Shown here in pieces: positions 1,786-32,629 of a stretch of 56,521 nt of DNA (the first letter of the stretch is position 1; each line of letters opens with the position of its first letter). The notes under the pieces were generated by a model. The model was given only the letters and a program-made list of their open reading frames with translations. It was not told the DNA's origin and did not search any database. The DNA comes from Pseudomonadota bacterium (GTDB lineage: Bacteria; Desulfobacterota; Desulfovibrionia; Desulfovibrionales; Desulfovibrionaceae), in contig JAHIUW010000003.1 of the NCBI GenBank assembly GCA_018816865.1, forward strand, positions 1 through 56,521, written 5' to 3'. Position numbers and translations under genes: made by a program.

Positions 1786-3003
1786 ATGTGGAGCCGGTAT
1801 ATCCATAACGTATTTGTCGGCATCGCTGCACTGTTTCTGCTGATGGCTGCCGTGAATGTCGTTGTTGACCCACTGTGGACTTTTGGTACTCCGTTCGTTG
1901 CGGGGGTAAACGCTAATAAACCAATTTTTTCGCGTTTTGTGCGTTTGGGCAAGGCTTATATTGTGAGTCGGTTGAAGCCGCAGGTCGTGACGTTAGGCAG
2001 TTCGCGAGTCGAATTGAGTATTGGCCCGGGACATTTCCCTAATGCAGGGCTGGACTGGTATAATCTGGCTCTCAGCGGGGCTTCTTTGTATGAAATGCGA
2101 CGCTATCTGGACCATGCCATTGCCCAGGGGCGGTTGCAGGAAGCCTTGGTGGGGCTAGATTTTTACATGTTTAATACAAATCTCCAGCCCAAACCTGGGT
2201 TTGACGAGTCCATTCTTGCCCCCAACGCAAGGGCGTGGGACCGGGTCGCCTTGGCCTTTTCGTCTTCATTGTTCAAGATTAGCGTGGAGTCCATTGGGAA
2301 GCAGTGGCGGCGTTCGTTTTATGATCCCGTGAGCGGACATGACTTCGGTAAGGAAGACAGTCTTGTCGGCTCCGGTGGGCAAAATGCGGCTTTTATGCGT
2401 GTCCTTTCTCGCATTATCCAGAGATTGACAAAGGAGTCTGGTAGCGACCCCATTCAAAAAACAGCAACATGGGATCAATATGAGGCTATGCTCGAAGCAG
2501 CTCACGCAAAAGGTGTGCGACTGAAACTGTTTTTGTCTCCTGTTCATGCTTGGTTCATGCAGCCATACACGGAGAGTGGACAATGGGATAAGATTGAGGA
2601 TTGGAAACGAGGATTGGTCAGGTTGAACGAGGCCGTGGCCCAACGTATGGGGTGTGCACCTTTTCCTCTCTGGGATTTTAGCGGTTACAACTCGTTTACG
2701 ACTGAGAGTGTTCCAGGGCCTGGCGATGTGACTTCTCGTATGCATTGGTATTATGAGGCCTCCCATTGCCGCAGCAGTCTTGGTGATTTGATGCAAGACC
2801 GGATGTACGGCGTGAACAACCCGCTGCTTACGGACGATTTTGGCCTTCGCCTGACCTCGGAAAACATCGAAGCGAATTTGACGCGTACCCGCGCGGACCA
2901 AATGGACTGGGAACAGTTGAATCTCCAACCTTTGGGTGAGATACGCCAACTGATAATCGAGCTAAAGACAAAAGAGGCCTTTTCCCAGGAAGCCCCAGAT
3001 TGA
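1786..3003 (+). CDS. MBOAT partner protein, SGNH-like/AlgX-AlgJ-like
   Basis: A 405-residue protein with one N-terminal membrane segment (about residues 8-28), probably anchored in the inner membrane facing the periplasm. VTLGSSRVE near residue 70 resembles the nucleophile block of SGNH/GDSL hydrolase-like folds, and later SPVHAWF may hold the His of such a site. Proteins of this kind often sit next to AlgI-like acyltransferases and act on the acyl group or polymer in the periplasm. Tight spacing to the MBOAT gene supports joint function. The specific name is not recognised; the fold assignment rests on one motif and on context. Confidence 0.7.
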   Translation: MWSRYIHNVFVGIAALFLLMAAVNVVVDPLWTFGTPFVAGVNANKPIFSRFVRLGKAYIVSRLKPQVVTLGSSRVELSIGPGHFPNAGLDWYNLALSGASLYEMRRYLDHAIAQGRLQEALVGLDFYMFNTNLQPKPGFDESILAPNARAWDRVALAFSSSLFKISVESIGKQWRRSFYDPVSGHDFGKEDSLVGSGGQNAAFMRVLSRIIQRLTKESGSDPIQKTATWDQYEAMLEAAHAKGVRLKLFLSPVHAWFMQPYTESGQWDKIEDWKRGLVRLNEAVAQRMGCAPFPLWDFSGYNSFTTESVPGPGDVTSRMHWYYEASHCRSSLGDLMQDRMYGVNNPLLTDDFGLRLTSENIEANLTRTRADQMDWEQLNLQPLGEIRQLIIELKTKEAFSQEAPD

Positions 3004-3257
3004 TTTTGGAGTATTTTTTTGTGGGTTGGACAGCCATGCGCATGATTCGTGAAGCTCCCTCGGGTTTCCTCTGTCCTGACTTCATTAATTAAAGGGCAAG
3101 GGCATTTTTCAATGACCAATCCTGAAAGAGCAATTGCGACCGGCCTGTTGTGAGCTGGCCTGAAGTCGATTAGGCCGCTGGCCCTTGACTTCCTGCGTGA
3201 ATGGGGTAGCCGAAGAGCCGCACGGTTTTTCGGGTACCCTTTTAACAAAACGATACT

Positions 3258-5225
3258 ATGTCCCGCATATCCATTCAGTCAGTTTCCAAGTCCTTTGGTG
3301 GACGCGATTTGTTCGAGTCCTTCTCCCTGGAGATCACCGGCGGCATGCGCTTGGCCGTGGTCGGTCCCAACGGTTGCGGCAAGTCTACTTTGCTGCGCAT
3401 CCTGGCCGGGGAGGAAACTCCGGATTTCGGGCAGGTCCTGATTCCCAAGGACACGCTCCTCGGATTCTCCAAGCAGGAGCTGAACGAGACCGACCTGGCG
3501 ACCCCGGCCTTGCCCTGGGTCATGGCCGCGTTGCCCTCCTGGGGCGATTTCTGGGAGAAGTGGGATCGGGCCACCGAGGCCCATGATCAGGCCGCCCTGG
3601 CGCTGTTGACCCAGGAGCAGGCGCATCTGGAACACCTCTTCGGCTACAACCCGGAGCACAAGGCCAAGGCCGTGCTCACGGGGCTGGGCTTCGAGGAGCA
3701 GCAATTGAACCAGCCCCTGCGAGAGTTGTCCGGCGGCTGGCGCGAGCGCGCCAAGCTGTCGCGCATCCTGGTCGAGGGGGCGGGGGCGCTGATGCTGGAC
3801 GAACCCACCAACCACCTGGACCTGGAAGCCGTGGAATGGCTGGAGGACTACCTCATCAATTTTGAGGGCCCACTGATCTTCGTGGCCCATGACCGGGTGC
3901 TGCTGGACCGAGTGGCGACCCATGTGCTGTTCCTGGGCGGGATCAAGCCCACGGTGCGCAAGGGGACCTTCACCCAGTTCCTGGCCTGGCAGGTCGAGAC
4001 CGAGGACCAGCGCCGCCGCGAGGAACAGCGGGTCCAGGACGACATCGCCAAGAAGGCCGATTATGTGCGCCGCTTCCAGGCCAAATCATCCAAGGCGCGT
4101 CAGGCCAACAGCATGAAGAAGCAGGTGGCCAAGCTGGAGAAGGAGCTGGTGGGCCTGAAGCCCGAGGCCAAGGCCAGGGAACTGGCCTTCAAGTGGCCCG
4201 AGCCTGCCCGCGGCAACAAGACCGTGCTCTCATGCGTGGGCGTGCAGTATGCCTATCCGGACAGTAAGCCCCTGTGGGAGCCGCTGGATTTCAATCTCTA
4301 TGCCGGGCAAAAGGTTGCTTTGGCTGGCCCCAACGGCTGCGGCAAAACCACCCTGCTCAAGGCCCTGATGGGTGAGCTGCACTCCACCGTCGGTGTTGTG
4401 GACCTGGGCAACAAGATCACCGTGGGCTATTTCAGTCAGCATCAGGCCGATCTGCTGGATTTGGACAAGCCAGCGCTGGCCGAGATCCGCCGCCTGTCCG
4501 ATCCACGCACCACCGAGGAGGAACTGCGCAGCGTGCTGGGGCTGTTCATGTTGGGCGAGAGCTATTGGGATCGCAAGGTGCGCGCTCTGTCCGGCGGCGA
4601 GAAGAACCGCCTGGTGCTGGCCTCGCTGTTTCTGAAGCGCGCCAACTTCCTGGTGCTGGACGAGCCCACCAACCACCTGGACCTGGAAAGCCGCGATGCG
4701 TTGATCCGCGCCCTGCGCGATTACACTGGCACCATCCTGATGGTGGCCCATGACCGTTACCTGATGACCAACGTCGCCAAGGAAGTCTGGTGGCTGAAAT
4801 TTGATGGCATCGAGGTCTTCGCCGAGGGTTTCCTGGGCTACGATCGCGCCCGCAGGGCGTTCCTGGACGGGTCCGCCTGTGGCCCCAAGGTGGAGGTCGG
4901 GGGCAGGGTCTCCCGCGTCGAATCCAAGGAAATGAAGCGCCTGCAGGCCGAGACCCGCAATGCACTGTACAAGAAGATCAAGCCGTTGCAGGCCGAGTAC
5001 GAGAAGCTGGAAGCACGGCTGGAGGTCATGCTGGGTGAGCAGTCCGGAGTGGAACAGAGCCTGGCCGACCCCGATGTCTACGCCAATGTGCCCAAGTCAA
5101 CGGAGCTTATGAAGCGATTTTCGGAGCTGAATGTCCAGGTCGAGAAGCAGATGGAACGCATGGCCTCACTGGAAGAGGAGCTTGCCGCCCTGGAGGCCGA
5201 GCGCGACGCCTTGGGGGGCTGTTAG
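3258..5225 (+). CDS. ABC-F family ATPase (Uup/YheS type)
   Basis: Cytoplasmic 655-residue protein with two ABC ATPase cassettes and no membrane segments, so an ABC-F factor acting on ribosomes rather than a transporter. Cassette 1: Walker A GPNGCGKST near residue 36, signature LSGGWRER near 157, Walker B LMLDEPTNHLDL near 178. Cassette 2: GPNGCGKTT near 356, LSGGEKNR near 443, LVLDEPTNHLDL shortly after. A charged linker lies between them, and a C-terminal coiled coil (about 555-655) resembles Uup and YheS. ATG at 3258 precedes the first conserved strand directly, with no clear Shine-Dalgarno. The 3' end overlaps the convergent downstream gene by 4 bases. Confidence 0.93.
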   Translation: MSRISIQSVSKSFGGRDLFESFSLEITGGMRLAVVGPNGCGKSTLLRILAGEETPDFGQVLIPKDTLLGFSKQELNETDLATPALPWVMAALPSWGDFWEKWDRATEAHDQAALALLTQEQAHLEHLFGYNPEHKAKAVLTGLGFEEQQLNQPLRELSGGWRERAKLSRILVEGAGALMLDEPTNHLDLEAVEWLEDYLINFEGPLIFVAHDRVLLDRVATHVLFLGGIKPTVRKGTFTQFLAWQVETEDQRRREEQRVQDDIAKKADYVRRFQAKSSKARQANSMKKQVAKLEKELVGLKPEAKARELAFKWPEPARGNKTVLSCVGVQYAYPDSKPLWEPLDFNLYAGQKVALAGPNGCGKTTLLKALMGELHSTVGVVDLGNKITVGYFSQHQADLLDLDKPALAEIRRLSDPRTTEEELRSVLGLFMLGESYWDRKVRALSGGEKNRLVLASLFLKRANFLVLDEPTNHLDLESRDALIRALRDYTGTILMVAHDRYLMTNVAKEVWWLKFDGIEVFAEGFLGYDRARRAFLDGSACGPKVEVGGRVSRVESKEMKRLQAETRNALYKKIKPLQAEYEKLEARLEVMLGEQSGVEQSLADPDVYANVPKSTELMKRFSELNVQVEKQMERMASLEEELAALEAERDALGGC

Positions 5226-13809: not shown

Positions 13810-13840
13810 AAAAGGCGCCAGCCTTGCGGCTGGCGCCTTT
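13810..13840 (-). terminator. Terminator of the SRP RNA gene
   Basis: AAAAGGCGCCAGCC / GGCTGGCGCCTTT is a perfect GC-rich stem. On the minus strand it directly follows the 3' end of the SRP RNA and ends in a T run. Confidence 0.85.
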
Positions 13841-13845
13841 GAGTG

Positions 13846-13955
13846 GAAACCAGGCACCCAGTAACAACCGTTACCGTTGCTCCCTTTCGGGCCTGGCGGG
13901 GTTGGCGGCGTTGCTGCCGCCCGGTTTCCCTGCGGGTGATTCTTGTGCCTGCACA
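13846..13955 (-). ncRNA. ffs: Signal recognition particle RNA, small (4.5S) type
   Basis: Read on the minus strand, CCAGGCCCGAAAGGGAGCAA at the tip is the SRP domain IV signature: an asymmetric AGG/AGCA internal loop closed by CCC-GAAA-GGG. Terminal pairing CAGGCAC (5') with GTGCCTG (3') closes a hairpin of about 110 bases, the size of 4.5S RNA. A terminator follows and a TTGACA box lies about 16 bases before the proposed 5' end. The RNA binds Ffh and targets nascent membrane proteins. The ends are approximate. Confidence 0.85.
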
Positions 13956-27227: not shown

Positions 27228-27319
27228 TGGCGGAGAGGAGAGGATTCGAACCTCCGATCGAGTTTCCCCGATACACGCTTTCCAGGCGTGCTCCTTAAAC
27301 CGTACTCGGACACCTCTCC
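27228..27319 (-). tRNA. tRNA-Ser(GGA)
   Basis: On the minus strand a 92-base tRNA including an encoded CCA. The acceptor stem is GGAGAGG/CCTCTCC; the anticodon loop lies in CACGCCTGGAAAGCGTG with anticodon GGA; a long variable arm (as in class II serine tRNAs) precedes the T arm GGAGG-TTCGAAT-CCTCT. It reads UCC/UCU codons. Confidence 0.96.
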
Positions 27320-27372: not shown

Positions 27373-27406
27373 AAAAAAATCCGGCGCATGGAGTTGCGCC
27401 GGATTT
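27373..27406 (-). terminator. Terminator after the candidate selenoprotein gene
   Basis: On the minus strand AATCCGGCGCAA / TGCGCCGGATT is followed by a T run. It starts 7 bases past the second TGA (27413-27415) rather than near the first TGA 79 bases earlier, which supports translation to the second stop. Confidence 0.85.
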
Positions 27407-27412
27407 TGCTGG

Positions 27413-27583
27413 TCATTCTTTGGGGTCGTGCTCGATGGTCTTCTTGTCTTTCTTGGCCTTGGGCTGCCAACTGCAGCTCTCGGAGGAAGGGCCTCAGCCT
27501 TTGATGCCGAGCCTGGGCAGGATGACCTGGGTCAGCACGAGGTAGATGCCGACGATGAGCAGTATGTTCAGCAGGCTATCCAT
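27413..27583 (-). CDS. Candidate small membrane selenoprotein (in-frame TGA)
   Basis: With TGA 27496-27494 read as selenocysteine, a 56-residue protein results: a single N-terminal membrane helix (MDSLLNILLIVGIYLVLTQV), then LPRLGIKG-U-GPSSESC and a lysine-rich tail ending HDPKE before a second TGA. U30 and C37 could form a redox pair facing the aqueous side. The start ATG 27583 has a strong AAGGAGGCC. A hairpin starting 16 bases after the TGA fits the bacterial SECIS rule, and the terminator follows the second stop directly. If TGA is a true stop, the product is a 29-residue membrane peptide. I know of no exact family match; the selenoprotein reading is inference. Confidence 0.6.
27463..27496 (-). 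promoter_or_regulatory. Putative bacterial SECIS element
   Basis: Directly after the in-frame TGA, GCTGC-AGTTG-GCAGC forms a perfect 5-bp stem with a 5-base loop. The loop begins 22 bases after the TGA and has G as its second base. This meets the general bacterial SECIS pattern (apical loop 16-37 bases after UGA, with G among its first two bases) recognised by SelB. Confidence 0.5.
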
Positions 27584-27686
27584 GAGGCCTCCTTGCTGAT
27601 GACGGTTTACCGCGCCAGAGGGGGCGGTCTGTGTTGCAAGAAGATAAGCTCCCCCGGGCGAAGGTCAACCCCCACCCCGTGCGCCG

Positions 27687-28793
27687 TCAACCTTGATGAA
27701 ACTCGCGGATTGCCGTGCAGACCTCGTCCACCTGTTCCGTTTCAAGACCCGGGAACAGCGGCAGGCTCAGAATCTGTGCTGCCATCCGTTCGGTCAGGCC
27801 CAACTCGTCGGCGCGGAAGGGGACCTTGCCGTCGGTGAACAGGGCCTGCTTGTGCCCGGGGATGGGATAATGCTGACCCGTGCCGATACCCCGTGCGGCC
27901 AGGAAGGCGGCCAGTTCGTCCCGGCGCTGGGAGCGGATGACATAGAGATGATAGACGTGCTCGCAGCCTTCGGCCACCGTGGGCGTGATCACGGGCAGGC
28001 CTGCGAGGCCCTCGTCGTAGATTTCGGCCAGCATGCGCCGCTCCGCCGTGGTGCGGTCCATGTGCTTCAGGCGTTCGCGCAGGAACGCGGCCTGGAGTTC
28101 GTCCATGCGGCTGTTCACCCCGGGGATGACGCATTCGTAGCGCTTGGACTCGCCATACTGGCGCAGCCGCCGCAGGGCCTGGTCCGCCTCGACGTGCGAG
28201 CCGCAAATGGCCCCGGCATCGCCCAGGGCGCCGAGGTTCTTGGTGGGGTAGAAGCTGTAGGCCGCCAGCTCGCCCACTGTGCCTGCGCCGCGCCCGCCTG
28301 CCACAGCACCGTGGGCCTGGGCGCAATCCTCGATGAAGGCCACTCCACGCTTGCGGCAGAGGTCTTCCAGGGAGTCCAGGTCACAGGGATGGCCGTAGAG
28401 GTGGACGCCGATCACGGCGCGGGTTTGTTCGGTGATCATGCGCGCCGCGCTTTGGGGGGACAGGCAGTAGCTCTGCTCGTCCACTTCGGCAAAGACGGGA
28501 ATGCAGCCCGCCGCCAGCACGGCGTGATAGCAGGGCAGGGCGGTGAACGCGGGCAGCACGACCTCGCCGCCTTCGCAGCCCAGGGCCTTCAGGGCCAGGA
28601 TCAGGGCGTCCGTGCCGCTGTTGAGGGAGACGCAGAAGCGCGTGCCGACCCAGGCCGCGAATTCCTGCTCAAAGGCCTCGGTTTCGGGGCCCATGAGGTA
28701 CCAGCCGCGAGCCAGGACGCGCTCGAAGGCCTCGCGCAGGGCCTGTTCCTGAGAAGCCAATTGGGCTTTGATATCATTGAACGGTATGGGCAT
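27687..28793 (-). CDS. DegT/DnrJ/EryC1-type sugar aminotransferase
   Basis: 368-residue PLP enzyme that transfers an amino group to a keto-sugar nucleotide, usually for surface polysaccharides. Motifs: LNSGTDALILALKALG (cofactor phosphate region), PAFTALPCYHAVLAAG, FIEDCAQAHGA, and SFYPTKNLGALGDAGA with the Schiff-base lysine near residue 184. NSRMDELQAAFL and GQHYPIPGHKQ are also typical. ATG 28793 (MPIPFNDIKAQL) is preferred over a GTG four codons upstream. No other sugar genes are near; the candidate selenoprotein gene lies 103 bases downstream on the same strand. Confidence 0.92.
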   Translation of the reverse strand: MPIPFNDIKAQLASQEQALREAFERVLARGWYLMGPETEAFEQEFAAWVGTRFCVSLNSGTDALILALKALGCEGGEVVLPAFTALPCYHAVLAAGCIPVFAEVDEQSYCLSPQSAARMITEQTRAVIGVHLYGHPCDLDSLEDLCRKRGVAFIEDCAQAHGAVAGGRGAGTVGELAAYSFYPTKNLGALGDAGAICGSHVEADQALRRLRQYGESKRYECVIPGVNSRMDELQAAFLRERLKHMDRTTAERRMLAEIYDEGLAGLPVITPTVAEGCEHVYHLYVIRSQRRDELAAFLAARGIGTGQHYPIPGHKQALFTDGKVPFRADELGLTERMAAQILSLPLFPGLETEQVDEVCTAIREFHQG

Positions 28794-28926
28794 CGGGATG
28801 TTCACTCCGGTTGAATTCGGGACGGATTGAACCCCTCATTTACCCGCGCCCCGAGTGGAATGCAAATGGAGAACCGAGGGCTGTGGCAGGGGGAGGAGCA
28901 GGAGGTGGGGGGGGGAGGGGCGCAGC

Positions 28927-28981: not shown

Positions 28982-30130
28982 CTAAGCGCGGGCCTGGATG
29001 TATTCGGCCTTGAGCGAGGCAATGAGATCGTGGACAGAGACGATGTCCTTGACCCGGTGCACATTGGCCCCGGCAAAGGCGAAGCCGTGTTCCAGCTTGC
29101 CCTTGACCGCATTGGTCAGGGCGCTGGCGATGCAGTAGGGGCTCTTTGCGATGTCGCAGGTCTTGACGCAGTGGAACGGGCAGCGGAAGGGCTTGCGCTT
29201 GCCTGCGCGCACGGCGTCGATGAACTTGCTGCGCAGGGCGCGTCCGGGCATGCCCACGGGGCTCTTGATGATCTCCACGTCGGCTTCGGTGGCGTCCACG
29301 AAGGACTGCTTGAAGCGCGGATCGGCATCGCATTCGAGGGTGGCCACGAAACGGGTGCCCATCTGCACACCGGCGGCTCCCAGATCCAGCATCTTCCTGA
29401 TGTCCGCACCGTCGTAGACACCGCCAGCGGCGATGACGGGTACCTTGACCCCGGTCTTCTCTTCAAAGGGGCGCACGGCCGCGATGACTTCCTCCACCAG
29501 CTTTTCCAGGCGGTAGTCGGGGTCGTCGAGCTGTTCGACCTTGAAGCCCAGGTGGCCTCCGGCCTTGGGGCCTTCCACCACGAAGGCGTCGGGCATGTAG
29601 TTGAACTTGTTCAGCCATTTCTGGGTGATGATCTTGGCCGCGCGGCCGGAACTGACGATGGGAGCCAACTTGGTCTTGGCGCCTTCGGTCAGGTAGCCGG
29701 GCAGGTCCAGGGGCAGACCGGCGCCGGAGAAGATGATGTCCGCGCCTTCCTTGACGGAGGTGCGCACCATGTCAGCGAAGTTGGTCAGCGCGACCATGAT
29801 GTTCACGCCCAGGATGCCGTCGGACTTCTCACGGGCAGTGCGCAGTTCACGGGTCAGGGCCTTGACGTGGGCCTCGGAATTCTTGGCCGCTGCGTTGTCC
29901 CTGAAGCCGATCATGGCGGCGGCGATGACACCGATGCCACCCTCGTTGGCCACGGCCGAGGCCAGGCCGGATAGGGAGATTCCCACACCCATGCCGCCCT
30001 GGATGATGGGTACCCTGGCCACCAGATCGCCGATGGTCAGCTCGGGCATCGTCAGCTCGGGCATCTTCATCTCCGGGAATGTGATCTCGGGCATCGTGAG
30101 CTCAGGCAATTTAATTTCAGACAATCTCAT
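28982..30130 (-). CDS. Nitronate monooxygenase-like FMN flavoprotein with N-terminal pentapeptide repeats
   Basis: 382-residue TIM-barrel flavoprotein of the 2-nitropropane dioxygenase/FabK-like family. Motifs: VPIIQGGMGVGISLSGLASAV, DIIFSGAGLPLDLP, VVEGPKAGGHLG, VPVIAAGGVYDG and GAAGVQMGTRFVA (FMN phosphate loop). Before the barrel lie five units of the form xPExx (LPELT, MPEIT, FPEMK, MPELT, MPELT), encoded by near-identical 15-base repeats. ATG 30130 is preceded by GAGGAAACCC; longer upstream starts lack support. Cysteines near the C-terminus (KTCDIAKSPYCIAS) may bind a metal. Physiological substrate unknown. Confidence 0.88.
   Translation of the reverse strand: MRLSEIKLPELTMPEITFPEMKMPELTMPELTIGDLVARVPIIQGGMGVGISLSGLASAVANEGGIGVIAAAMIGFRDNAAAKNSEAHVKALTRELRTAREKSDGILGVNIMVALTNFADMVRTSVKEGADIIFSGAGLPLDLPGYLTEGAKTKLAPIVSSGRAAKIITQKWLNKFNYMPDAFVVEGPKAGGHLGFKVEQLDDPDYRLEKLVEEVIAAVRPFEEKTGVKVPVIAAGGVYDGADIRKMLDLGAAGVQMGTRFVATLECDADPRFKQSFVDATEADVEIIKSPVGMPGRALRSKFIDAVRAGKRKPFRCPFHCVKTCDIAKSPYCIASALTNAVKGKLEHGFAFAGANVHRVKDIVSVHDLIASLKAEYIQARA
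30036..30110. repeat. Five tandem 15-bp coding repeats
   Basis: Units at 30036-30050, 30051-30065, 30066-30080, 30081-30095 and 30096-30110. The first two are identical (GTCAGCTCGGGCATC). They encode the xPExx repeats at the N-terminus of the flavoprotein and could change copy number by slippage without breaking the frame. Confidence 0.85.
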
Positions 30131-30234
30131 GGGTTTCCTCATGTTACGGGATGGTTGCGCATGTTGCGTACGCAATGCTTTCCGCATTTCTATGGACGCC
30201 GGGCAGCACACCCGGTCTGTATTTATGTAGCAGT

Positions 30235-30255
30235 GCCAACGATGCGATCGTTGGC
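30235..30255. other. Perfect hairpin between purC and the flavoprotein gene
   Basis: GCCAACGAT-GCG-ATCGTTGGC forms a 9-bp stem 24 bases downstream of the purC stop (minus strand). No T run follows on either strand; it may be an operator, mRNA end structure or weak terminator. A second GC stem (CCGGG/CCCGG) lies at about 30199-30215. Confidence 0.45.
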
Positions 30256-30278
30256 CTGTCTTAGAATATAACACCCGA

Positions 30279-31178
30279 TTACTTGAAAGGGAATGCCTCG
30301 CCGGTGAGAAATTCGTAGGCCTCGACGTATTTCACGCGGGTGCGTTCGATGACTTCGGGGGTCAGGGTCGGCGGGGGCGGGGTCTTGTCCCACACCTGGG
30401 CGGAAAGCCAGTCGCGCAGGTACTGCTTGTCGAAGCTGGGCTGCGATGCTCCGGGGGCATAGCCCTTGTGGGGCCAGAAACGTGAGGAATCCGGGGTCAG
30501 GACCTCGTCGATGAGGATCACGCCATCAGCGGTCATGCCAAATTCGAATTTGGTGTCGGCGATGATGATGCCCTTAGTCGCCGCGTATTCGCTGCCGGCC
30601 TTGTAGATCTCCAGAGAGGCCTGCTGCACCTGCTGCACCACGTCGCGTCCGGCACGGTCCATGGCCTGATCCATGGTGATGTTCTCGTCGTGCTCGCCCA
30701 GGTCCGCCTTGGTGGAGGGGGTGAACAGCGGCTCGGGGAGCTGTTCCGATTCCCGGAGATTGGCGGGCAGGTCGTAGCCGCAAACGGTGCCGGTCCGCTG
30801 GTAGTCCTTCCAGCCGGAGCCGGTGATGTAGCCGCGCACGATGCACTCGATGGGCAGGGGCTTGGCTTTCTTGACGATCACCGAGCGGCCTTCCAGGTCG
30901 GTCGCATAGGGGGCCAGTTGCGACGGAAACTTGGCCACGTCGCGTTCCACAAGGTGGTTGGGCACGATGTGCGCGAACTTGTCCATCCAGAAGAGGGTGA
31001 TCATGTTCAGGACCACGCCCTTGTAGGGGATGGGTTCGTTCATGACCACGTCGAACGCGCTCATGCGGTCCGTGGTGATGATGAGCAGCTCGTCGGGAGA
31101 AATTTCATAGATATCACGGACTTTTCCGCGGGAAACCAGGGGGTATTCCTTGATGCTGGTCTGGGTGACGATATTCAC
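30279..31178 (-). CDS. purC: Phosphoribosylaminoimidazole-succinocarboxamide synthase
   Basis: 299-residue ATP-dependent ligase joining CAIR and aspartate in purine synthesis. Motifs: SRGKVRDIYEI (ATP-binding N-terminus), TTDRMSAFDVVMNEPIPYKG, ECIVRGYITGSGWKDY, IADTKFEFG and DEVLTPDSSRFWP. The length fits the family. Translation starts at GTG 31178, eight bases after the G of AAGGAG; no ATG is suitable. hisD lies upstream on the same strand, 146 bases away. Confidence 0.96.
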   Translation of the reverse strand: MNIVTQTSIKEYPLVSRGKVRDIYEISPDELLIITTDRMSAFDVVMNEPIPYKGVVLNMITLFWMDKFAHIVPNHLVERDVAKFPSQLAPYATDLEGRSVIVKKAKPLPIECIVRGYITGSGWKDYQRTGTVCGYDLPANLRESEQLPEPLFTPSTKADLGEHDENITMDQAMDRAGRDVVQQVQQASLEIYKAGSEYAATKGIIIADTKFEFGMTADGVILIDEVLTPDSSRFWPHKGYAPGASQPSFDKQYLRDWLSAQVWDKTPPPPTLTPEVIERTRVKYVEAYEFLTGEAFPFK

Positions 31179-31324
31179 GGTGTGCTCCTTGAGGTGGCGA
31201 TGGCCCCTCTCATACGGGAAAAACAGTCGATTTGGAAGCGCCGCGCAGCCCCTCCATTTGCGGGGCGGGGGCCTGTGTTCTTCGCGTGGCCGTGGCCGTG
31301 ACCGCGCGGGAGGGCGGCTGTCAG

Positions 31325-32629
31325 CTATTGTTTGCGTTGTTCCACGCTGCGGGCGTGGGCTTCCAGCCCTTCCAGGCGCGCCAGGCGGGCGATCTTGTCC
31401 GCATGGGCCTGGATGAAGGCCGGTGAGGTCGCCACCACGCTGGATTTCTTGATGAAGGTCTGCACGGACAGGGCCGAGGAAAAACGCGCCGTGCTGAGGG
31501 TGGGCAACACGTGGTTGGGGCCTGCGAAATAGTCGCCCACCGGCTCGGGCGCGGTGTGGCCCATGAAGATGGCCCCCGCATTGCGGATCTTGCCCAGCAG
31601 CGCCCAGGGATCGGCCACGGCCAGTTCCAGGTGCTCCGGGGCCAGGCGGTTGATGCAATCCACGGCGGCGTCCAGGTTGGGGCAGAGCAGGATCGCACCC
31701 CAGTCGTGCAGTGATTTGTTGGCCACCTCGGCGCGGGGCAGCAGGGCGGTCTGAATCTTCAGCTCGGCGCGGACGGCCTTGGCCAGTTCAGGGTCGGTGG
31801 TGGCCAGGATGGACGAGGCCAGGGGGTCGTGTTCGGCCTGGGAGAGCATGTCCGCAGCCAGCCAGGCCGGGTTGGCGCTTTGGTCGGCGATGATGGCGAT
31901 CTCGCTGGGGCCGGCGATCATGTCGATGCCGACCTTGCCCATGAGCAGGCGCTTGGCCGTGGTCACAAAGATATTGCCAGGCCCGGCAATGACGTCCACG
32001 GGCTGGATGGTCTCGGTGCCGTAGGCCAGGGCCGCGATGGCCCAGGCGCTGCCCGCGCGGAAGAGCTGGGTTAGGCCCAACAGATTGGCCGTGGCCAGCA
32101 GGTACGGGTTCAGGCTGCCGTCCGGGCGCGGCGGCGTGGTCACTTGGATATCGCGGACCCCGGCCACCTGCGCCGGAATGGCGTTCATCAGCAGGCTTGA
32201 GATCAGCGGGACCTGACCACCCTGGCCGCCGGGGACATACAGCCCAACGCGGTCCACGGGCGTGACCATCTGGCCCAGGATGGTGCCGTCGTCTTTGGTG
32301 GTCCACCAGGAATTCTCGCGCTGGCGCTGGTGATAGGCGCGGATGTTGGCGGCGGCTTCGGCCAGGATTTCCATGTCCGATGCCGGGACCTCGGCGCGGG
32401 CGGCCTCGTATTCCTGCGGGCTGACCTTGAGCGCGTCGGCGCTGAGGGTCTTGCAGTCGAATCTGCGGCCATAGTCCACCAGCGCCTGGTCGCCGCGTTC
32501 GCGCACGGTGGCCAGGATCTCGGCCACCGCGGCGTCCACATCGGCACCGGGGGCATCCCGCCCGGCAAGGCGGGCTTTTAGGGCGGCCCAATCCTGGGGG
32601 CCGGAGTAGGGCAGTTCGGGGCAGGGCAT
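31325..32629 (-). CDS. hisD: Histidinol dehydrogenase
   Basis: 434-residue zinc enzyme catalysing the last two steps of histidine synthesis, histidinol to histidine with two NAD. Key residues by comparison with E. coli HisD: zinc-binding QAEHDPLASS (Gln and His), the catalytic Glu-His in RLAPEHLEL, the Asp in EPVGDYFAGPNHVLPT and the His near the C-terminus in EGLEAHA. The NAD-binding block IAGPSEIAI is present. No other his genes are adjacent. It is transcribed toward purC. Confidence 0.97.
   Translation of the reverse strand: MPCPELPYSGPQDWAALKARLAGRDAPGADVDAAVAEILATVRERGDQALVDYGRRFDCKTLSADALKVSPQEYEAARAEVPASDMEILAEAAANIRAYHQRQRENSWWTTKDDGTILGQMVTPVDRVGLYVPGGQGGQVPLISSLLMNAIPAQVAGVRDIQVTTPPRPDGSLNPYLLATANLLGLTQLFRAGSAWAIAALAYGTETIQPVDVIAGPGNIFVTTAKRLLMGKVGIDMIAGPSEIAIIADQSANPAWLAADMLSQAEHDPLASSILATTDPELAKAVRAELKIQTALLPRAEVANKSLHDWGAILLCPNLDAAVDCINRLAPEHLELAVADPWALLGKIRNAGAIFMGHTAPEPVGDYFAGPNHVLPTLSTARFSSALSVQTFIKKSSVVATSPAFIQAHADKIARLARLEGLEAHARSVEQRKQ

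Follow-up and report, generated by a model that had tools for sequence, protein, structure and literature searches.

Among described selenoproteins, the eukaryotic SELENOS and SELENOK offer the closest architectural parallel to the protein considered here. According to the accessible part of PMC10650576, they combine one N-terminal transmembrane helix with an unstructured, charged cytosolic region bearing selenocysteine (Sec, U), as is predicted for the present protein; a Sec-Cys bond forms in SELENOS, which may rely on the thioredoxin system. In prokaryotes, an inventory of 2026 tabulates 119 selenoprotein families (PMC13188914, Table 1), drawing on its references 59-66 among others and citing many NCBIfam models; as far as its accessible part goes, these families share with the one reported here a bacterial mode of Sec insertion with a bSECIS element, and redox roles are usually assumed for them. 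According to the accessible part of PMC12013277, Cys homologues now seem to exist for every known selenoprotein, and its own method may filter out selenoproteins lacking them. Selenium is also used in sulfide and sulfane-sulfur chemistry by the selenoprotein subtype of the type III sulfide:quinone reductases (SQR; NF049943) and by rhodanese-type selenoproteins; these are larger proteins, whereas the members of the new family have about 50 residues and are encoded beside such an enzyme in a few loci. Proteins with the YgaP-like transmembrane domain (PF11127) are small membrane proteins too and adjoin two of the Cys forms described below (L314 and L342; L and G numbers denote loci and genomes), but they constitute a separate family encoded alongside and are not among the Pfam matches of the new family.

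The locus analyzed here lies on the minus strand of the window, i.e. the whole stretch of 56,521 nucleotides that was analyzed; the earlier note on this DNA gave no strand. It almost certainly encodes a genuine selenoprotein, in which the UGA at codon 30 is read as Sec, an identity that sequence alone could hardly make more secure. The case is built on the reading frame, the conservation of the TGA, the SECIS hairpin, the Sec machinery, the Cys forms, the distribution of the family and its gene neighbors. Its likeness to SELENOS and SELENOK is one of architecture, with no Pfam model matching the new family above noise; moreover, its SECIS element is of the bacterial type and lies within the coding region, and while the Sec of SELENOS and SELENOK is the second or third residue from the C terminus, here it is placed a few residues past the helix.

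Searches with hmmscan against NCBIfam 20.0 and Pfam, using 1, 30 and 69 members of the family, recovered nothing above noise or the curated cut-offs (best E-values 0.002 in NCBIfam, to ATP synthase subunit b, and 0.012 in Pfam), and a profile search of the PDB gave a single non-significant match (E=0.8). In the accessible part of Table 1 of PMC13188914 no entry is recognizable by name or motif. Membership in a known selenoprotein family was rejected on the basis of these NCBIfam, Pfam and Table 1 results, and as far as could be searched, with partial coverage of the literature, the family is undescribed. Nor does it resemble the thioredoxin-fold selenoproteins: it is modelled as one helix only, and a UxxC motif occurs in none of the 110 distinct members considered below, the first Cys being at +2 in one and otherwise at +5 or later, or absent.

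Architecture of the locus

The features of the locus and its surroundings are as follows, with the basis of each in brackets.

27228..27319, minus strand: tRNA-Ser(GGA), downstream (near the selenoprotein gene in several other genomes too)
27376..27407, minus strand: intrinsic terminator, 13-pair stem plus T run (sequence)
27413..27415, minus strand: final stop TGA (sequence)
27416..27583, minus strand: selenoprotein coding sequence, 56 residues (translation, TGA read as U)
27463..27477, minus strand: bacterial SECIS hairpin GCTGC-AGTTG-GCAGC (sequence, control tests, covariation)
27473..27475, minus strand: Cys37, codon TGC (second conserved residue)
27494..27496, minus strand: Sec codon 30, in-frame TGA (conserved among distinct homologues)
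27512..27580, minus strand: predicted single membrane-spanning helix, codons 2-24 (AlphaFold2)
27588..27594, minus strand: Shine-Dalgarno AAGGAGG, 4 nt 5' of the ATG (sequence)
27641..27668, minus strand: weak promoter-like TTGACC-16-TATCTT, 9 of 12 consensus letters (sequence)
27687..28805, minus strand: DegT/DnrJ/EryC1 aminotransferase, upstream (Pfam PF01041, tblastn; kept in part of the near relatives)
28982..30274, minus strand: nitronate monooxygenase family, upstream (Pfam PF03060, tblastn)
30279..31658, minus strand: purC (SAICAR synthetase), listed ORF longer than the domain (Pfam PF01259, tblastn)
31325..32629, minus strand: hisD, upstream (Pfam PF00815, tblastn)

From the ATG at 27583, codons 1-29 read MDSLLNILLIVGIYLVLTQVILPRLGIKG and are followed by the in-frame TGA and by 26 further codons, GPSSESCSWQPKAKKDKKTIEHDPKE, up to a second TGA. 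This agrees with the earlier description of 29 codons that end in TGA after a very strong Shine-Dalgarno, of a frame that runs 26 codons beyond it, and of a U30-x6-C37 spacing, all of which can be read off the sequence and its translation. The hairpin that had been reported 16 bases past the first TGA, with a 5-bp stem and a 5-base loop, is likewise present and fits the bSECIS model, and the TGC codon of Cys37 sits within its stem. A terminator had also been claimed after the second stop; it is there, but the gap is 5 nt rather than 7.

In the AlphaFold2 model residues 2-24 form a helix (mean pLDDT 90 over residues 1-20), while the tail is of low confidence and lacks secondary structure. By the positive-inside rule the helix would be oriented N-out/C-in, which would place the selenol at the cytoplasmic membrane surface. 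The family as a whole is typified by one predicted transmembrane helix, a PxxG motif, U30, usually a Cys 5-7 residues later, and a charged tail.

No evident redox-partner or sulfur gene is found among the neighbors in the window, which is also the case in much of the class. Upstream of the gene in the 40 loci of the class that were searched, purC is found in 21 and hisD in 20, in some cases with intervening genes. The hisD-purC-aminotransferase neighborhood was rejected as a functional clue, since its order looks inherited within the class and it differs elsewhere. An Rfam search of the window recovered two tRNAs and the SRP RNA, and nothing else, the latter being a bacterial small SRP RNA at 13839-13932 on the minus strand.

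Conservation and decoding of the in-frame TGA

A protein search recovered matches in 44 of 99 relatives (the window's own genome counted), 43 of them with an in-frame TGA inside and one without. Thirty of the 44 were read individually and used as a profile; Cys37 is invariant across the 30 rows of the first alignment (A1) of relatives. This profile has matches in 158 of 348 genomes of the window's class and in 178 of 395 genomes (121 of 246 genera) of its phylum. Family matches are also present in 72 of 297 sampled genomes of the phylum to which G732 belongs (taken as Acidobacteriota, since G732 is a Terriglobia metagenome-assembled genome, MAG), and in 26 of 294 sampled genomes of Planctomycetota, the phylum of the Planctomycetaceae MAG G733. 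Some profile matches end at position 28-29, just short of the Sec codon, with no stop inside; those of them that were read (L093, L111-L113, L181, L182, L186-L188, L315-L318) all have TGA. L319 and L320 look like false matches, and those in G856 and G924 were left unread.

A DNA pattern, W-x-(L/F)-P-(K/R)-x-G-x-x-x-U-x4-C, searched across phyla with one genome per species, matched at least 119 stretches. Among the 80 matches listed, 64 passed an automatic test for a hydrophobic stretch with an ATG at the right distance, and on reading all 80 look like members except L257, for which no start was found, and L268, a chance pattern match without a helix. Three of 39 further matches are doubtful: L274, L286 and L303 have no clear start or helix and are degraded copies or chance occurrences. 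The groups named in the titles of the matches listed include Acidobacteria, Planctomycetes, Verrucomicrobia, Armatimonadetes, Chloroflexi, Spirochaetes, Zixibacteria and Cyanobacteria (Obscuribacter and PR.3.49). These cross-phylum records are MAGs, in which misbinning may occur, and for several of the phyla there are no more than one or two of them. By these matches the family reaches several phyla, something that the earlier note could not know.

Genes of about 50 codons that are broken by a TGA are short for gene finders. That a widespread family has neither a Pfam or NCBIfam model nor a recognized entry in the accessible part of the 2026 inventory (PMC13188914) suggests that bacterial selenoproteomes are systematically undercounted, because of such short TGA-interrupted genes together with methods that need Cys homologues, as the accessible part of PMC12013277 describes for its own; in the new family Cys forms are rare.

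The 110 distinct proteins extracted from the fetched loci are 44-64 residues long. Their Sec codon is TGA in 109 and TGC in one, whereas the final stops are of all three kinds (TAA 42, TAG 36, TGA 32). Before the Sec position 104 carry PxxG (the exceptions being L090, L097, L102, L116, L117 and L118), 14-34 residues follow the Sec/Cys position in all 110, and 95 have a Shine-Dalgarno-like tetramer no more than 18 nt from the start. In 98 of the 110 the first Cys comes 5, 6 or 7 residues past U, and some Cys follows in frame in 107, with the spacing shifting by whole codons; no such Cys is present in L091, L103 and L145, or in L321-L323. Thus, the sequence after the TGA, in which the earlier note had seen a protein-like composition, is indeed related among the homologous loci read, with its Cys and charged tail, and conservation past the TGA is found in many genomes. 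In L093, L111, L112 and L113 the sole Cys after U is found at the very end of the protein (GGCG). The selenoprotein gene is duplicated in tandem in L091 (G029:C1:158957-159247), G245 and G253, with a TGA inside each match.

The hairpin after the TGA was compared against controls by means of a score requiring a stem of at least 4 pairs, a loop of 3-8 nt with G in its first two positions, and a loop start 14-37 nt after the TGA. The bSECIS model, in the accessible part of PMC13188914, calls for G at one of the first two positions of the loop, with G or U frequently coming next, and for a distance of 16-37 nt; at the present locus the 5-nt loop has G at position 2 and then U, and lies 21 nt from the TGA. 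Of 109 family members 103 attain a score of at least 10, as against 34% of 295 stretches that follow ordinary TGA stops and 35% of 2352 stretches within genes; in 200 synonymous shuffles the mean is 37.9 of 109 (maximum 51). Three of the 109 have no such hairpin. Covariation was studied in 31 of the 36 sequences with Cys at +7. In this set 82.8% of cells pair, a fraction that, like the paired fractions below, is partly so by construction because the hairpin position came from the same sequences, and sliding the hairpin along them gives at most 56.5%. Nine cells are changed on both sides, a count reached by none of 500 shuffles, and the covariation score is also reached by none of 500; two coarser measures are marginal, as 36 of 500 shuffles reach the observed number of pairs with a double change and 45 of 500 that of pair types. 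For all 36 sequences the values are 82% paired against at most 57% when slid, and for 148 sequences with Cys at +5 they are 62% against 33-42%. The hairpin after the TGA is far above controls and shows covariation.

The rare homologues with Cys at the Sec position, of the kind that the earlier note had named as potential support, amount to five (loci L031, L314, L342, L347 and L348, in genomes G036, G948, G1222, G1236 and G1293). The form in G036 has a TGC codon in a genome that still has SelB, and G133, of the same genus, retains TGA; the form in the acidobacterial G948 has TGT, with no SelB match in the genome; and the remaining three are from Planctomycetota. The second Cys is kept in all five. 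Four of them have a SECIS score of 0; that of G1236 scores 11, which is weak as about one third of control stretches score at least 10. Motifs of the tail that are encoded where the hairpin lies (VEDR, for instance) are lost in the Cys forms, implying that part of this conservation may reflect the RNA rather than the protein.

The Sec machinery that the earlier reading presupposes is in place: in the window's genome (3.64 Mb, 99.97% complete) selA, selB, selD and tRNA-Sec are all present over their cut-offs (bit scores 606 for SelA, 392 for SelB, 345 for SelD and 76 for tRNA-Sec). Of the two findings that the earlier note had named as refuting its reading, a genome without these genes and homologous loci with unrelated sequence past the first TGA, neither was obtained. 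The SelD of this genome (L048, G000:C21:41386-42303) has an in-frame TGA of its own and is thus probably a selenoprotein itself. Among the relatives SelB is over its cut-off in 42 of 44 genomes with the family as against 45 of 55 without it (one-sided Fisher p=0.036, kinship ignored); of the two exceptions one is a 67% complete genome and the other has a truncated SelB match. The corresponding figures in Acidobacteriota are 64 of 72 and 130 of 225 (p=3e-7, kinship ignored). The eight acidobacterial matches lacking SelB comprise the Cys form in G948, weak matches in G818, G856, G899 and G924, and good matches with TGA in G879, G888 and G1003. In 38 genomes searched as contigs SelB is over the cut-off in 32, the six without being that of L268 and the MAGs of L193, L199, L209, L241 and L261.

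These observations bear on the simplest alternative, namely that the TGA is a true stop, so that the gene encodes a membrane peptide of 29 residues and the conserved stretch downstream is an untranslated RNA hairpin. Such a peptide with a good Shine-Dalgarno is plausible in itself, and the few good TGA matches in genomes with no SelB match are in its favor. Against it stand the final stops of all three kinds beside an internal codon that is TGA in all but one case, the in-frame Cys that persists despite whole-codon shifts in spacing, the five Cys forms that read straight through, and the co-occurrence of the Sec machinery with the family. On these grounds we rejected a true stop at codon 30 as extremely improbable. 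The same TGA conservation, SECIS hairpin, Sec machinery and Cys forms instead uphold the earlier proposal of a new small membrane selenoprotein, whose UGA codon 30 would be decoded by SelB and tRNA-Sec at the coding-sequence SECIS hairpin just downstream.

Gene neighborhoods and potential functions

Outside the class, 146 same-strand genes within 400 bp of the selenoprotein gene were scanned with Pfam, with 145 genes from the same loci, on either strand and more than 400 bp to 6 kb away, as controls. Thioredoxin is the commonest adjacent gene (13 of 146, at most 2 of 145 controls), and 12 of 119 loci matched by the DNA pattern have a WCxPC thioredoxin motif on the same strand no more than 750 bp away, with one other match to it across their 871 kb. 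In a Pirellulales MAG (L193:1145-1660, plus strand), in which SelB was not found, the selenoprotein frame passes the U and enters a thioredoxin domain with no intervening stop, although an internal ATG could start the thioredoxin alone. Rhodanese shows a weak excess (6 of 146 as against 2 of 145).

Several loci further display a sulfide-oxidation context. In L251 (about 2710-4194, plus strand) the frame past the Sec codon enters an SQR-like flavoprotein without a stop, and TauE- and rhodanese-like genes, named by eye, lie 5' of it. The two similar loci L347 and L348 have the order TauE, MBL/rhodanese, Cys form and SQR-like gene. The SQR-like neighbors of L251 and L347 score 239 and 259 bits against NF049943, below its cut-off of 525. 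Rhodanese-, MBL/rhodanese-, TauE- or SQR-like genes adjoin the Sec forms L197, L237, L251 and L258, and rhodanese- and/or MBL/rhodanese-like genes those of L197, L237, L258 and L299 (both partly named by eye); near L237 a YgaP-like domain (PF11127) is fused to rhodanese. The Cys form L314 is adjoined by a CoA-disulfide-reductase-like/rhodanese protein and a YgaP-like gene. The names of some of these sulfur-locus genes were given by eye or taken from similar members of their cluster, and the nine loci looked at closely were chosen as promising, so the frequency of such neighborhoods cannot be read from them; many family matches have other neighbors.

The earlier note had suggested a thiol/selenol redox protein. 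Nothing in the window bears on such a role, but the thioredoxin adjacency, the in-frame fusion and the sulfide-oxidation neighborhoods of some loci make it more likely. Taken as a whole, the explanation that we consider probable is a new family of single-pass membrane selenoproteins, of about 45-65 residues, with a redox mechanism. The parts of it that we infer are the topology, the selenenylsulfide, thioredoxin as the reductant, and the substrate. The selenol, displayed at the cytoplasmic surface of the membrane a few residues past the conserved PxxG, would be the reactive group: as a selenolate it might attack an oxidized or sulfur-carrying substrate at the membrane and then form a Sec-Cys selenenylsulfide with the second Cys, which cytosolic thioredoxin would re-reduce. 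To this sequence of selenolate attack, selenenylsulfide formation and re-reduction by thioredoxin we would assign an even chance. More tentatively, the substrate in at least some lineages might be sulfane sulfur or persulfide, which would derive from sulfide:quinone reductase and be handled by rhodanese and persulfide dioxygenase. A bolder version, which we hold to be rather unlikely, is that of an ancient membrane-tethered micro-selenoprotein module, a bacterial analogue of SELENOS, that passes membrane-derived sulfane sulfur via Sec-Cys to thioredoxin or rhodanese and was overlooked because the gene is tiny and Cys forms are rare. If true, such a module would occur in close to half of the genomes sampled from the window's phylum, in a quarter of the sampled Acidobacteriota and in several further phyla. 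With this family one could also ask, in a simple bacterial setting, why Sec is used in short membrane proteins with a single pass, and its neighbors point to thioredoxin and persulfide chemistry that is directly testable.

Instead of handling sulfur, the selenoprotein might act as a reductase of peroxide or quinone close to the membrane. Rubrerythrin-like genes near six loci and desulfoferrodoxin-like genes near four (both named by eye) are consistent with this, as is thioredoxin in the capacity of reductant. We nevertheless think it unlikely, as the model, with one helix and a low-confidence tail, suggests no peroxidase fold, and sulfur genes form the clearer context in the loci viewed closely. 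Another reading is that the protein mainly reads or buffers selenium status, with read-through of a short, possibly abundant Sec peptide reporting the selenium supply. The early position of the Sec codon in a tiny gene, truncation at which leaves a tail-less membrane peptide, would suit such a device; yet a selenium sensor would need no Cys forms, and one of these belongs to a genome where SelB had no match; no selenium-metabolism family is present among the 25 commonest neighbor families. This makes it, in our estimate, a very remote prospect.

Finally, the selenol/thiol pair of the selenoprotein might be a soft metal or metalloid site (for example Hg, As or Cu) serving a membrane transporter or sensor, in place of a redox shuttle. 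ArsR-family regulators (Pfam HTH_5) account for 5 of the 146 adjacent genes as against at most 2 of the 145 controls, and adjoin nine loci that form one cluster (named by eye), but some ArsR proteins are persulfide sensors. Among the 25 commonest neighbor families thioredoxin and rhodanese precede both ArsR and MerR (three genes), and we know of no metal motif of the form U-x4-6-C. We therefore regard a metal site as improbable, and as distinctly less so than a device for selenium status. It would also be compatible with the FmdB-like zinc-ribbon genes. Of 80 loci, 14 have such a gene on the same strand no more than 500 bp away; four of the 14 are from one genus, and two of the genes were confirmed as Pfam Zn_ribbon_8. 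FmdB-like genes were also found in 4 of the 119 cross-phylum loci. In one genus (L093, L111, L113 and L115) the FmdB-like zinc-ribbon gene is situated directly 3' of the selenoprotein gene.
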